Origin: Deltaproteobacteria bacterium
GTDB taxonomy: Bacteria; Myxococcota; B64-G9
DNA: 51,323 nt
Reading direction: 5' to 3'
Assembly: GCA_019307065.1 (NCBI GenBank)
Contig: JAFDKH010000009.1
Location: 1 to 51,323, forward strand
Shown: piece by piece, positions 22,935 through 33,940 of the stretch
Layout of the letters: every line of letters starts with the position of its first letter
How positions within the stretch are numbered: position 1 is the stretch's first letter
Position numbers and translations under genes: made by a program
The notes under the pieces: model-generated
The model's input: only the letters and a program-made list of their open reading frames with translations
Database searches by the model: none
What the model was told of the DNA's origin: nothing

Positions 22935-24074
22935 ATGAAGCGCATATTAAAATACCATTTTCTTTTCGGTCTGACCTTGCTGGCTCTGGCGGCCCTGGGA
23001 ACCTGGTGGACGATCTTTTTCATGCGCTCGGTCGAGCTCGAAAAGAAAACCCAGCTGAACGAGTTGGTGCATGGCTGCGTAGTGACCGCCCTGATGCTCG
23101 GCCACGGCAATCAAAAACCCGAGCTCGGTCCACTGGCCGGTCCGATGCCTTTGGAAATCATCGCGGCTGAATCTTTCGAAAAAAACATGATTTTCGCGCC
23201 GGCCGTGCCCAACTTTCCCTCAATCGGCGTGCGCGTCAAACCAGCCGCCCTGGCCAAGATTGAAACCAGACTTCAACGCCGCCGTCTGATGTTGATCGGC
23301 GAAGGCGGCTTGCTGGTTATTCTTCTGGCTGTCCTGACATTCATGCTCTACCGCCTGGTCGGCCAGGAACGAAGGCATATGCGCCGCATGGAAGCCTTCG
23401 TCGCCTCGGTCTCTCACGAAATGAAAACGCCCTTGACGGGCATCAAGTCCATGCTACAGACCTTTGCCGAAGACCGGGTACCCCAGGCCGAAGCCCAGCG
23501 CTTGTATGGCCTGGGAATCAAGGAGGCCGAGCGGCTCGAGCATATGATTGAGAACGTCCTCATTTCGGGCCATCTACGGCGGACAGGCTTTCAACTACAG
23601 CTCGAGCCAATCGAGCTTCGCCAACTACTCGACGGCTTTATCGAACACCGCCGACGCTACTTGATTGAACATCCCGATGCGATCCGTCTCGAGTGGCAGG
23701 CTGCCGATCCAGGCCTGAGTGTAACCGGCGATGGCAACGCGCTACATCTCATCCTCGAGAATCTTACCGACAACGCATTCAAGTACGGCGGGCAGTCACC
23801 CCAGGTTACTTTGCGAGTCAGTCAGACTGATCAGACCGTCGAAATCTCGGTTGAGGATCAAGGCATCGGTTTTTCGCCGGAAAAGGCTGCTAAACTTTTC
23901 ATACCCTTCAAACGTGCCCTGGATGAAAAAGCCGCCGCCCAACACGGCACTGGACTGGGACTCTCAATTGCTTTTGCCCTGGCCCACCGCATGGGAGGCA
24001 ACTTAACCGCAAAAAGCGATGGACCAGGGACGGGCAGCCGGTTTACTCTCTCTCTCAGGGAGGCTGGTAAATGA
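22935..24074 (+). CDS. Membrane sensor histidine kinase embedded in the heme cluster
   Basis: A 379-aa sensor kinase. TM1 spans about residues 8-30 and TM2 about 118-140, enclosing a periplasmic domain of about 85 residues with no recognised fold. The HisKA domain has the phospho-acceptor H161 in SVSHEMKTPLTG. The ATPase domain shows the N box (LTDNAFKYG), G1 (EDQGIGFS) and G2 (HGTGLGLSIAF). Its stop overlaps the next gene's start (ATGA), so it pairs with that response regulator. It begins 11 bases after hemL. The location suggests a role in controlling heme synthesis or sensing a related signal such as heme, redox or envelope stress; this is inference. Confidence 0.9.
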   Translation: MKRILKYHFLFGLTLLALAALGTWWTIFFMRSVELEKKTQLNELVHGCVVTALMLGHGNQKPELGPLAGPMPLEIIAAESFEKNMIFAPAVPNFPSIGVRVKPAALAKIETRLQRRRLMLIGEGGLLVILLAVLTFMLYRLVGQERRHMRRMEAFVASVSHEMKTPLTGIKSMLQTFAEDRVPQAEAQRLYGLGIKEAERLEHMIENVLISGHLRRTGFQLQLEPIELRQLLDGFIEHRRRYLIEHPDAIRLEWQAADPGLSVTGDGNALHLILENLTDNAFKYGGQSPQVTLRVSQTDQTVEISVEDQGIGFSPEKAAKLFIPFKRALDEKAAAQHGTGLGLSIAFALAHRMGGNLTAKSDGPGTGSRFTLSLREAGK

Positions 24075-24760
24075 GTCCGAAGGCTTTGCTGGTTGAGGAT
24101 GAAGAACTGGTCGGCACCATGGTTCGCATGAACTTAGAAAGCGCCGGTTACGAAGTAGTCTGGCAGCGCAGAGGAAGTCAGGCGGTCGAACTCGCCAGCC
24201 AGGGCACCTTCGATGTGATCTTGTTGGACATCAGCCTGCCGGAGAGAGACGGAATGACGATTCTCGAAGAGCTCCGCCAAAACAATGTCAACACGCCGGT
24301 CATGATGTTGACCGCTCGCGGCGATACCGCCACCAAGGTCCAAGCCCTCGAAATTGGCGCCGATGATTATCTGCCCAAGCCTTTCGATGTGGCCGAGATG
24401 ATCGCCAGGGTCAATGCGCTAGTCAGGCGTTCACAGTCTGATCGCGAGCTTCCCTCGGACCACGTTGTCAAACTAGGCAATTTCCAGATCAACGTAGAAA
24501 CTCGGGAAGCCACCTGCAATGAGGGTGACATTATTCTGGGCGAGAAAGAAGTCGATATTATCAAGCTGCTGGTCAAGGCCCGCGGCAAGACATTGACCCG
24601 CTCGGACATTCTCGAAGATGTCTGGGGCATGGACGTCTCACCCACCGAACGAACAGTCGACAACTTCATTATGCGTCTGCGCAAGCTCTTCGAGCCGGAC
24701 CCCGACCGGCCCCGACACATCTTGACCGTCAGGGGCAGCGGCTATCGTCTCGTACTCTAG
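24071..24760 (+). CDS. OmpR-family response regulator
   Basis: A 229-aa response regulator. The receiver domain (1-118) has the acidic pair E9/D10, phospho-acceptor D53 (ILLDISLPERDG), T81 and K103 (YLPKPFD). The winged-helix DNA-binding domain (about 130-229) shows the TRSDILEDVWG and TVDNFIMRLRKLFEP motifs of the OmpR/PhoB group. It is translationally coupled to the histidine kinase. Such regulators bind direct repeats on one DNA face, which fits the phased GACA repeats at 13890-13925 upstream of hemE; that link is untested. Confidence 0.93.
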   Translation: MSPKALLVEDEELVGTMVRMNLESAGYEVVWQRRGSQAVELASQGTFDVILLDISLPERDGMTILEELRQNNVNTPVMMLTARGDTATKVQALEIGADDYLPKPFDVAEMIARVNALVRRSQSDRELPSDHVVKLGNFQINVETREATCNEGDIILGEKEVDIIKLLVKARGKTLTRSDILEDVWGMDVSPTERTVDNFIMRLRKLFEPDPDRPRHILTVRGSGYRLVL

Positions 24761-25767: not shown

Positions 25768-26091
25768 TCAGCAACTGCAGCTGCCGCAGGCATCCGATCC
25801 GGCATCGGCCGAGAGCGGGTTGGCCGATTCGATCTTGAACCCTCCCCCGAATGGGTTCTGGGTGTACTCGATCTTTATTTCACCGGTTTTAGTCAACAGC
25901 TCTTCTTCGATCACAAACTTTATTTCGTCAATATCGAACGTTTTGTCAGTGTCTTTTGGCTCATCCAGAGCCAAACCCAAAGAGGGGCCGCCTCAGCCAT
26001 AGGCCAGATAAATTCTCAACGGCGCGCTCTCTTTGCGCTCCTTCATGAAAATACTAAGCTTTTCACGGGCTTCTGGAGTTATGTCCAACAT
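25768..26091 (-). CDS. HesB/IscA-like selenoprotein (Sec33 encoded by in-frame TGA)
   Basis: Reading leftward from ATG 26089-26091 gives a 107-aa protein with one in-frame TGA at codon 33 (25993-25995). The text around it is IYLAYG-U-GGPSLGLALDE, where U falls at the first conserved Cys of the HesB/IscA domain. The downstream part continues the fold and ends in the Cys-rich tail CGSCSC, then a real TGA stop. A near-ideal bacterial SECIS hairpin follows the TGA. GAGG precedes the ATG. HesB-like selenoproteins are a known family (TIGR01911). These proteins are thought to act in Fe-S cluster assembly or thiol/selenol redox chemistry. An ordinary gene caller would report only the 70-residue tail. 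Confidence 0.9.
25955..25975 (-). promoter_or_regulatory. Bacterial SECIS element
   Basis: On the minus strand, UUUGGCUC pairs with GAGCCAAA (8 bp, no mismatch) around the 5-base loop UGGAU. The loop has G at its second position, and 26 bases separate the UGA from that G. This fits the bacterial SECIS model bound by SelB (short stem, G in the first loop positions, 16-37 bases from UGA). The element lies in the coding sequence, as is usual in bacteria. Confidence 0.88.
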
Positions 26092-26212
26092 AGCTTACCT
26101 CACTTCCTAAGTTTCGTTGCCCGCCCCTATTTCAGTGGTAATCTAAGCAAGTTTTACGCAAGTGTCAATCGTTACAGGCTTTAAAATCAGAAATCCTCAA
26201 GGAGAAATGAAC

Positions 26213-29713: not shown

Positions 29714-29867
29714 AACTTAGTTGCTCCCAACCAGGCGATGTCGGCCGGGAAACACCACTCAAATTTCCATTGCGACCATAGAAACCCAGATTCACTGGCG
29801 TTGACAACCATCAATCAACCTGCAATCTTTTACTTTACGTTGGGGTGGCATTATTTTGCGAGGTCAG

Positions 29868-32800
29868 ATGGCTAACCAATCGACAGATCCGCTCCTGATT
29901 GATATCCAGGGACACACCGAATGTCTTTTGGGCAACGAAGCAATCGTGCGCGGAGCGCTCGAAGCTGGAGTGGCTTTTGCGGCCGGGTACCCGGGCACGC
30001 CTTCTTCTGAGATAACCGATTCGTTCGCCCGGGTGGCAGATAATGCCGGGATTGTTTTCGAATACTCGGTCAATGAGAAGATCGCTTTAGAAATGGCCTT
30101 TGCCGCCTCACTGGCCGGGGCCCGTTCGATTTGCGCCATGAAACATCTCGGTCTGATGTATGCCGGCGACCCGCTCTCGACTATACCTTACGTGGGAACT
30201 GTGGCCGGAATGGTGATTGTTTCGGCCGGGGATCCCTCATGTCGGACCAGCCCTAATGAGCAAGATCAGCGCCTGCTGGCTCCCATGCTGCACATCCCGG
30301 TCCTCGATCCCAGTACGCCGGCTGAGGCCTACGAAATGTGCCGCTTTGCATTCGAGCTTTCGGAGAAATGCCAGCTGCCGGTAATCATGCGACCGACCAC
30401 CCGGGTCTGCCACTCGCGAGCCGTGATCGAGTACGGCCGCTTGAAAAGACCGCAGGTCAAGGGCTTTACCAAGGACCCCAAACGCTTCGTCCCGATTCCG
30501 GTAAACGCCCGCCGACTTAGAGGTGATCTAAAAAGACGCCTGAGCCTGGCCGAGCAGGAAATCGCCCAATCGGAATTCATCCGGGACAGCGGTCAAGGCA
30601 AATTGGCCATTCTGGCATCCGGTGCCCCGGCTGGCACCACGGCTGATTTGCTGAACGAACGCGGACTGATTGATCAACTCAAGTTTATAGTAGTCGGGGC
30701 AGTCTATCCCCTGCCGACCGAGCGCTTACTTTCGGCCCTCGCCGGTGTCGAACGAGTACTCATAGTCGAGGAGCTGTCACCTTACTTGGAAGATGCGATC
30801 CTCGCGCTGTGTGCTCGGCACAAGACCGCCACCGAGGTGATCGGTAAGCGCAGCGGACACCTGCCGGTCGAGTTCGAATACGAGCCGCGCCAGATCCAAA
30901 AGGCAATTTACACCGGGCTCGGGTTGGGTCCCGAGCCGGTCAGGCTCGACGAACCCGAATTTGTTCCGCCGCGGCCGCCCTCGTTGTGCCCCGGCTGCCC
31001 GCACCGGGCTTCACAATATGCCCTGCGAACAGTCTTCGGAGAGGAAGGCCTGTATTTCAACGACATCGGCTGCTACACGCTCGGCTACGGCCCGCCCTTG
31101 AATACGGCTGATGCTCTGTTGTGCATGGGTGCCGGATTCTCCCTGGCGGCCGGAGTGGCCCGGGTAACCAAGCAACGCACTGTCGGTATCATGGGTGATT
31201 CGACTTTTTTCCACTCGGGCATGCCGGCTCTTTTGAATGCAATTAAAGAAAACGTCAACATGGTGGCGGTCATCCTCGACAACCATGTCACCGGCATGAC
31301 CGGTTTTCAGGACAGCCCGTTGGTTAAGCGCGAGGGTGATCATTTCAGCCGCGATGTTCCGCTCGAGTCTTTAGTCAAGGCCCTGGGTGCCCGCAAGGTC
31401 GAAACTGTCGACCCCAATGACCTGCCGGCTTGCCTGGCCGCCTTCGAGCGCGCCCGCGACGCTCAGGGTGTCAGTGTGGTGATTTGTGAAAGAACTTGCC
31501 CGGTTCACCTGGCCCGCGAAACCAAACGACCCTACCAGGTCGGTACCTACGAAATCGATCAGGCGCTTTGCCAGACATGTTCTAGAGAAGATTGCGGTCT
31601 GCGCTGTCAACAGGAGATTAGCGAAGGTTTTGAACGGCACCTGGCGCGTTGCCGGGCGATGGAGACAAACAAGAGCGAGGCCTCGCTTCCCAGCAAGGCG
31701 CCTTGCAGCCTCAAGTGTCCCTTGGGACTTTGCATTCAGGGTTACACCGGACACATTGCGGCGGGTGAGTATCAGGCAGCCTTCGAGCAAATCATCCGAC
31801 TCGTGCCGCTCCCGGAAAGTGTTTGCCGGGTCTGCCACCACCCCTGCGAATCGGTTTGCGTACGGGCCGAGTTAGACGAACCGGTGGCGATCAACGAACT
31901 CAAGCGTTTCGTAATAGACTGGGCCAGGCGTGAAAATATCGCCTATCAACCCAGGCGTGAACCGGCCAATGGCATGAAAATAGCCGTGATCGGCTCCGGC
32001 CCGGCCGGTCTGGCGGCTGCCCACGATCTTGCCCTGCGCGGCTACCAGGTCGACCTGCTCGATGCTGATCACAAAGCGGGTGGGCTCTTGCGCAGCGGTA
32101 TTCCCGCCTACCGCCTCCCGCGAGAGGCTCTAGAGCGCGACATCGAGCGCATTCTTTCGCTGGGCATAAACTTCATCGGCGGCCAACGCCTGGGAGTCGA
32201 CTTTCAGATCGACGGCTTGTTGGCCCAAGACTATCAAGCAGTCTTTGTGGCAGTTGGTGCCGGCCTGGGGATTAAACTCCAGGTCGAAGACCCGGCCCAG
32301 CCCGATTATCCCGAGATTGTCGATGCTCTTGAATACCTGCAACAAGCCAACCTCGGTAAGTCAGCCGGCAAGCCCAAGCGGGTGGTTGTGATCGGCGGAG
32401 GCAACGCCGCCCTGGATGCCGCCCGGGTTGCCAAAAGGCTTTCAGCCTGTGAAGTCACGATTGCCTATCGGCGGCGGCTCGAAGAAATGCCGGCCATCAA
32501 GGAAGAAATCGCGGCTCTCGAGCAAGAAGGCATCCTGCTCCGAACTCAACTGGCCCCGCACAGAATCGAACAAGCCGGCCTGGTCTGTGTCAGGACACAA
32601 CCCGGCCAGCCGGATGAATCCGGCCGGGCGCGGCCGGTCGTGGTGGCCGACTCCGAAACCCTGCTCGCGGCTGATCAAATAATTGCGGCGATCGGCCAGA
32701 CTCCTGCGCCCGATCTGTTTTCCGGCGGCCAGCCTGTCCCGGCGGCTGATTCGAGCGGTTTACTTCAAATTGATCCGGCAACCTGTCAGACTTCAATTGA

Positions 32801-33341
32801 TAAAGTTTTTGCCGGTGGAGATCTGGTCGCCGGTGAACGTACGGTAACTGACGCGATCGCCACCGGAAGACGAGCGGCCTGGGGAATCGACAGCCGCCTG
32901 CGCGGAGCCAAAGCCGCCGATTGGTTAGCGGTACCCCCACCAGTCACTCAAGACTGTCCCGCCAGCCGAACAGGTGTCAGCCGGGCGGATCGGGTCGAGC
33001 GCCAACGACCGAAGCAACTCGAAGCCGAACAACGCCTGGATGGGTTCGCCGAAGTTGTGGCCGGCCTGACTGAAAGTCAGGCTCAAACCGAAGCCCGGCG
33101 CTGCATGGTCTGCGGCACGTGCGGCAACTGCCGAATCTGCCTCGATCTGTTTGGCTGTCCGGCATTTTTCGTCAAAGATCAACAGATCTTCATTGATCCG
33201 GAATTATGCATGGGCTGTGGGGTTTGCGCCGAGCTATGTCCCAATGGGGCGATTAAAAAAGTAAGCCAGCCGATCCAGGCCGCATCCAACGAACCGGCCT
33301 TGGGCCCGCTCGAAGCGCCGGCCGAGGAGATGGAAGAATGA
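29868..33341 (+). CDS. iorA: Indolepyruvate ferredoxin oxidoreductase alpha subunit with internal GltD/NfnB-like flavoprotein module
   Basis: A 1157-aa multidomain enzyme. Residues 1-560 are IorA: the pyrimidine/core domain, CPGCPHR (about 374) and the TPP site GIMGDSTFFHSG (about 439). Residues 567-690 hold Cys clusters, including CSLKCPLGLCIQGY and CRVCHHPCESVC, like the Fe-S domain of GltD, NfnB and dihydropyrimidine dehydrogenase. An FAD site follows at about 703 (VIGSGPAGLAAAHDL) and an NAD(P) site at about 838 (VVIGGGNAALDAARV). The terminal ferredoxin has CMVCGTCGNCRIC (about 1078) and CMGCGVCAELC (about 1113). Ordinary IorA is about 600 aa. The fusion could move electrons between 2-oxoacid oxidation, ferredoxin and NAD(P)H. 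ATG 29868 is preferred over TTG 29856. It overlaps iorB. Confidence 0.88.
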   Translation: MANQSTDPLLIDIQGHTECLLGNEAIVRGALEAGVAFAAGYPGTPSSEITDSFARVADNAGIVFEYSVNEKIALEMAFAASLAGARSICAMKHLGLMYAGDPLSTIPYVGTVAGMVIVSAGDPSCRTSPNEQDQRLLAPMLHIPVLDPSTPAEAYEMCRFAFELSEKCQLPVIMRPTTRVCHSRAVIEYGRLKRPQVKGFTKDPKRFVPIPVNARRLRGDLKRRLSLAEQEIAQSEFIRDSGQGKLAILASGAPAGTTADLLNERGLIDQLKFIVVGAVYPLPTERLLSALAGVERVLIVEELSPYLEDAILALCARHKTATEVIGKRSGHLPVEFEYEPRQIQKAIYTGLGLGPEPVRLDEPEFVPPRPPSLCPGCPHRASQYALRTVFGEEGLYFNDIGCYTLGYGPPLNTADALLCMGAGFSLAAGVARVTKQRTVGIMGDSTFFHSGMPALLNAIKENVNMVAVILDNHVTGMTGFQDSPLVKREGDHFSRDVPLESLVKALGARKVETVDPNDLPACLAAFERARDAQGVSVVICERTCPVHLARETKRPYQVGTYEIDQALCQTCSREDCGLRCQQEISEGFERHLARCRAMETNKSEASLPSKAPCSLKCPLGLCIQGYTGHIAAGEYQAAFEQIIRLVPLPESVCRVCHHPCESVCVRAELDEPVAINELKRFVIDWARRENIAYQPRREPANGMKIAVIGSGPAGLAAAHDLALRGYQVDLLDADHKAGGLLRSGIPAYRLPREALERDIERILSLGINFIGGQRLGVDFQIDGLLAQDYQAVFVAVGAGLGIKLQVEDPAQPDYPEIVDALEYLQQANLGKSAGKPKRVVVIGGGNAALDAARVAKRLSACEVTIAYRRRLEEMPAIKEEIAALEQEGILLRTQLAPHRIEQAGLVCVRTQPGQPDESGRARPVVVADSETLLAADQIIAAIGQTPAPDLFSGGQPVPAADSSGLLQIDPATCQTSIDKVFAGGDLVAGERTVTDAIATGRRAAWGIDSRLRGAKAADWLAVPPPVTQDCPASRTGVSRADRVERQRPKQLEAEQRLDGFAEVVAGLTESQAQTEARRCMVCGTCGNCRICLDLFGCPAFFVKDQQIFIDPELCMGCGVCAELCPNGAIKKVSQPIQAASNEPALGPLEAPAEEMEE

Positions 33342-33940
33342 CCCTTCCGATCAAGCGCTTGAAGCTATTGATTGCCGGGGTCGGCGGCCAGGGTGCCCTG
33401 ACGGCGGCCCGCTTCCTGGGCGAAGCCGCCTTGTCTTCGGGTATGCCGGTTATCGTCGGTCAACTGCATGGTATGTCACAACGCGGGGGTTCAGTTGAGT
33501 GCTCGGTAATCTTCGGAAAGGGCTACAGCTCACATATCGGTGAAGGTGAAGCAGATGTTGTCCTGGGCCTCGAGCCGCTCGAGGTCAAGCGCGCCTTGCC
33601 CAAGATTTCCAAACACACCAAAATCGTCCTCAACCTGGGCAAAATTGTGCCCTTGAGTCTGGCGATTGCAGGTAAAAGTTATCCGCCGCTCGAAGGAATT
33701 CTTGAAGCCATCCGCGAGGTGACCCCCCACCTGTTCGAAGTCGACGGCCCCGACCTGGTCAAACAGACCGGCTTGCCGCGCGCGCTGAATGTCGCCTTGC
33801 TCGGGGCCCTGGTCGGTCTGGAGATCTTGCCCTTTGGCCGTGAGGTTCTCTGGCAGGCGATTGTGAAAAAAATCCCCCTCCGCTTTTTAGAAGCCAATCG
33901 ACAGGCTTTTGAACTGGGAATCAGCGCAACTCACGCTTGA
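33338..33940 (+). CDS. iorB: Indolepyruvate ferredoxin oxidoreductase beta subunit
   Basis: A 200-aa gamma-type subunit of the 2-oxoacid:ferredoxin oxidoreductase family. It has the N-terminal LLIAGVGGQGALTAARFLGEAAL and the GQLHGMSQRGGSVECSV motif typical of IorB. With IorA it oxidatively decarboxylates aryl pyruvates from aromatic amino acids to aryl-acetyl-CoA, reducing ferredoxin. Its ATG overlaps the iorA stop (ATGA), so the subunits are made in balance. It converges on cpaB with a 15-base gap. Confidence 0.93.
   Translation: MTLPIKRLKLLIAGVGGQGALTAARFLGEAALSSGMPVIVGQLHGMSQRGGSVECSVIFGKGYSSHIGEGEADVVLGLEPLEVKRALPKISKHTKIVLNLGKIVPLSLAIAGKSYPPLEGILEAIREVTPHLFEVDGPDLVKQTGLPRALNVALLGALVGLEILPFGREVLWQAIVKKIPLRFLEANRQAFELGISATHA

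Follow-up and report, generated by a model that had tools for sequence, protein, structure and literature searches.

The window, a 51,323-nucleotide stretch of DNA, carries on its minus strand a short gene of the hesB/iscA type, in which the reading frame is continuous when an in-frame TGA at codon 33 is read as selenocysteine (Sec). The features of the locus are as follows.

25768–26091, minus strand: probable hesB/iscA-type selenoprotein gene of 107 codons plus a terminal TGA stop, with its ATG start at 26091–26089
26098–26101, minus strand: GAGG, a likely Shine–Dalgarno site 6 nt before the ATG, from reading the sequence
25993–25995, minus strand: in-frame TGA, codon 33, the predicted Sec codon
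25955–25975, minus strand: SECIS-like hairpin with an 8-bp stem (5′ arm 25975–25968, loop UGGAU 25967–25963, 3′ arm 25962–25955)
25771–25788, minus strand: CGSCSC C-terminal tail, residues 102–107, likely partner ligands of Sec33
25768–25770, minus strand: terminal TGA (25770–25768 in reading direction), an ordinary stop

With TGA translated as Sec (U), the product reads MLDITPEAREKLSIFMKERKESAPLRIYLAYGUGGPSLGLALDEPKDTDKTFDIDEIKFVIEEELLTKTGEIKIEYTQNPFGGGFKIESANPLSADAGSDACGSCSC. The initial annotation of this DNA had given the correct span for the gene but omitted its strand; the plus-strand reading of 25768–26091 yields no family-like protein. It had also warned that standard annotation would miss or truncate the gene, and the standard ORF listing indeed reports only a 70-residue fragment here, from a TTG start (25980–25768). 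Both the frame and the family match continue intact beyond the TGA of codon 33. The terminal TGA was considered as a second Sec codon and rejected, because three homologues (L003, L006 and L010) stop with a non-TGA codon at this position or within one residue of it.

The gene is convergent (tail to tail) with hemB, beyond which lie a class-III aminotransferase gene (probably hemL), hemD, hemC and a glutamyl-tRNA reductase gene. On its other side are genes for a glyoxalase-family protein, a PilZ protein and a C69 peptidase. The gene had been described as standing beside the heme operon, and its adjacency to hemB holds, but the convergent orientation means that it is not part of an operon with hemB. 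The convergent hemB–hesB pair recurs in G002, and the neighbours differ in most of the other loci compared: hemB and a kinase gene adjoin the homologue in that one other genus (L100, G002), and a C69 peptidase gene does so in another (L099). A heme-related role deduced from the neighbourhood is not supported in general, since among the loci compared hemB is a neighbour in only one other genus. Two further observations concern the window itself. Between the probable hemL and hemB lie genes for a histidine kinase and for a response regulator (22935–24760, plus strand), and a homologue of the kinase likewise adjoins hemB in G002 (L100). Farther away, a 1161-residue ORF (29856–33341, plus strand) resembles by eye the alpha subunit of indolepyruvate ferredoxin oxidoreductase fused to an NAD(P)-dependent oxidoreductase-like part and a ferredoxin-like part; it is followed by a gene with a match to the POR family (33338–33940).

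The curated family that recognises the protein is NF038090 (IscA_HesB_Se, NCBIfam), with a score of 102.8 bits against a cut-off of 85 and residues 1–102 aligned to positions 1–99 of the 101-position profile. The match thus spans both sides of the TGA, as the initial annotation had it, and shows no essential difference from the family, of which the window protein is a divergent member. Most homologues of the same family, as well as the Cys homologues tested, also pass this cut-off. Three related profiles fall short of theirs: TIGR01911 (HesB_rel_seleno) with 46.1 of 66.35 bits, PF01521 narrowly with 24.0 of 26.3 bits, and TIGR00049 with 39.6 of 58.8 bits. The proposal of a HesB-like selenoprotein was therefore right in family type but not in naming TIGR01911, relative to which the window protein belongs to a sister subfamily. 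It nevertheless resembles the HesB-like selenoproteins of the TIGR01911 type, which carry a UxGP motif (PMC13188914, PMC9312934, PMC1794560): it is a short HesB-like protein with Sec in the same place and UGGP at residues 33–36. Lists of bacterial selenoproteins have included a HesB-like family since the mid-2000s (PMC1794560, PMC1088965, PMC9312934, PMC13188914), and the window gene adds a member to it. Our literature search found no HesB selenoprotein from Myxococcota and no paper that mentions NF038090.

The predicted structure has a mean pLDDT of 82.6 and a disordered C-terminal tail. Its best Foldseek match is an IscA with a [2Fe-2S] cluster (PDB id: 1x0g, E 9.7e-7, TM 0.72), and further matches in the Protein Data Bank (1r94, 1s98, 2d2a) include IscA and SufA of E. 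coli. The protein shares with IscA, SufA and ErpA the fold, the position of the first conserved Cys and the presence of cysteines in the C-terminal tail. Unlike them, it has Sec in place of the first ligand and GUGGP rather than GGCSG at this site, and it stays below the PF01521 and TIGR00049 cut-offs. A canonical ErpA/IscA-like gene (L092) is present separately in the same genome.

Homologues were sought in 58 genomes, including the genome of the window, and the search was then widened to 195 genomes of the phylum. In the 58-genome search each of the ten best-scoring relatives that cover codon 33 has one in-frame TGA there, and the 195-genome search added more divergent relatives with the same TGA. 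Altogether the TGA is kept in 14 homologues, 13 of the same phylum and one in a deltaproteobacterial MAG (L052). A further 27 homologues carry TGC or TGT at the Sec codon. Almost all of them belong to Desulfobacterota or to deltaproteobacterial MAGs, with L068 as the one representative of Bacillota; they come from a contig scan that used patterns with Cys in place of Sec, so that Sec homologues are undercounted relative to them. Homologues ending at the TGA had been named as a finding that would speak against a selenoprotein; the homologues instead read on past it, with TGA or Cys at the position. Residue 33 aligns with the Cys of these 27 proteins and, in IscA-type proteins of solved structure, with the first conserved Cys, and this bears out the placement of the TGA (25995–25993) made from the sequence alone. 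Of the tail cysteines, C102 is nearly invariant across the alignment, and the others are common. L003 is the sister of the window protein in the phylogenetic tree (support 98/90), and this pair sits near a mixture of Sec genes of the phylum and Cys genes of Desulfobacterota, an arrangement that needs several changes between Sec and Cys. Four divergent relatives (L083, L085, L086 and L089, with matches that start at 1501 in each locus) have the in-frame TGA and the hairpin, with scores of 35–50 bits, far under the NF038090 cut-off. Three of these (L083, L086 and L089) have a single C-terminal Cys, in a GAC or GSC context, and no CxC tail. The four are possibly a separate Sec-containing subgroup of the IscA fold with a redox role.

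A bacterial SECIS element is expected as a hairpin shortly after the UGA, with a small apical loop containing a guanosine (PMC1088965). The perfect 8-bp stem with the loop UGGAU that the initial annotation had pointed out is present at its place, with all eight pairs formed and a measured distance of 25 nt between the TGA and the loop. The folding energy of this one sequence does not stand out (z = −0.68; matched by 45 of 200 shuffles), and the hairpin was therefore tested by its evolution instead. None of 2000 synonymous recodings of the same peptide contains an 8-bp stem. At least six contiguous pairs surround a UGGAU or UGGAC loop in 14 of the 15 TGA genes, the window gene included, where synonymous recoding of the same peptides predicts a stem in 0.17 of 15; the sole exception, L086, has one internal mismatch. 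At least five pairs are found in one of the 27 Cys genes. Four pairs of the stem have changed on both sides, and neither the covariation score nor the count of double-changed cells is reached in any of 500 shuffles, and sliding the 3′ arm destroys the pairing. These covariation counts are inflated by shared ancestry, on which the independent compensations in separate lineages (GGUUC/GAACC in L004, GUCUC/GAGAC in L085 and GACUC/GAGUC in L089) do not depend. An Rfam search for a SECIS family gave no match. The exact 15-mer of the hairpin has no second copy in the genome, and its one-mismatch copies (four, versus two in the reversed control) give no sign of a shared element elsewhere in it. One of the Cys genes, L064 (6001–6195), has TGC at the Sec position and still carries a 6-bp stem that encloses UGGAU, apparently the remains of a SECIS that outlasted a switch from Sec to Cys. 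A Cys-type HesB-like member with a remnant SECIS was known earlier from Desulfitobacterium hafniense.

The complete set of Sec genes predicted from the TGA (selA, selB, selC and selD) was found above the respective cut-offs in the same assembly, which consists of 471 contigs with 5.7% contamination and has these genes on contigs other than that of hesB. The tRNA-Sec scores 75.8 bits and has the anticodon TCA, SelB scores 337.7 bits and SelD 376.2 bits. The selA gene is in two pieces, each of which ends at the end of its contig (L037 on C314 and L038 on C254); apparently this is one gene cut by the assembly. The genome contains at least two further genes of the Sec type: selD itself (L039, contig C448) has an in-frame TGA in the context AGUAAKLGPGD, and the gene for the formate dehydrogenase alpha subunit FdhA (L094, contig C332) has one in the context CARLUHSS. 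Among the genomes of eight other family members, seven have a tRNA-Sec above 73 bits. The match is marginal (47.9 bits) in G002, which is 70% complete and has a TGA homologue, and the best hit in G037, a distant genome that is 92% complete and has a TGA gene, is 37 bits, below the cut-off; both cases are provisionally taken as gaps in draft genomes.

Taken together, the locus is best explained as a gene for a selenoprotein of the HesB/IscA family in which UGA codon 33 is read as Sec (probability about 0.95), and on the sequence evidence Sec is very likely inserted at this codon. Insertion of Sec at a UGA by SelB and a hairpin is an established general mechanism (PMC1088965). Here, SelB carrying Sec-tRNA(Sec) would bind the hairpin just downstream and the ribosome would then read the UGA as Sec. 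The product would be a 107-residue protein with the fold of an A-type Fe–S carrier and with Sec in place of the first of three conserved cysteines that bind a cluster or iron, and the CGSCSC tail would supply the remaining ligands. Most likely it is a Sec-containing A-type Fe–S carrier or a redox variant of one, a biochemical role that we infer. Judging by the fold and the positions of the ligands, the balance tips modestly towards Sec33 and the C-terminal cysteines handling an Fe–S cluster or iron as opposed to a purely redox function.

A somewhat less likely alternative is that the selenoprotein is no Fe–S carrier at all but a redox or selenenylsulphide enzyme with the IscA fold, whose reactive residue would be Sec33, partnered by a tail Cys. 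Consistent with this are the separate ErpA/IscA-like gene, which is canonical, the replacement of GGCSG by GUGGP, the divergent Sec relatives with one C-terminal Cys and no CxC tail, and the expectation, stated in a review, that most uncharacterised selenoproteins have redox roles (PMC13188914). The IscA-like fold itself and the retention of a multi-Cys tail in the closest members argue for the carrier. Both readings include the selenoprotein part, so that the confidence placed in one overlaps with that placed in the other. A pseudogene or a sequencing error, in which a Cys codon became or was misread as TGA and truncated an ordinary HesB/IscA gene, would take a single base change (TGC or TGT to TGA) in a draft assembly, but it is highly improbable given that 14 homologues in different genomes share the TGA, that a matching hairpin is maintained through compensatory changes and at synonymous positions, and that frame and family match are unbroken past the TGA. 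General recoding of TGA as a sense codon (e.g. as Trp), for which only the readthrough of TGA in three genes speaks, can be dismissed with similar assurance: TGA ends this very gene where relatives have TAA or TAG, it stands at Sec positions alongside a hairpin and Sec machinery, and the surrounding NCBIfam and Pfam proteins read normally under table 11.

As a discovery the HesB/IscA-family selenoprotein of the window is modest, because such proteins have long been on lists of selenoproteins. Its description restores to full length a gene that would be cut to 70 residues in ordinary ORF calls, and brings with it further homologues whose SECIS clearly covaries. That the Sec33 selenolate is a native ligand of an Fe–S cluster or iron, and that naturally Sec-ligated carriers function beside ordinary Cys-type IscA/ErpA proteins in the same cell, is a tentative and rather doubtful extension of this reading. 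With Sec and Cys alternating among its homologues, and with one Cys gene that still has a hairpin, the family is well suited to asking why Sec is kept at the ligand site of an Fe–S carrier.
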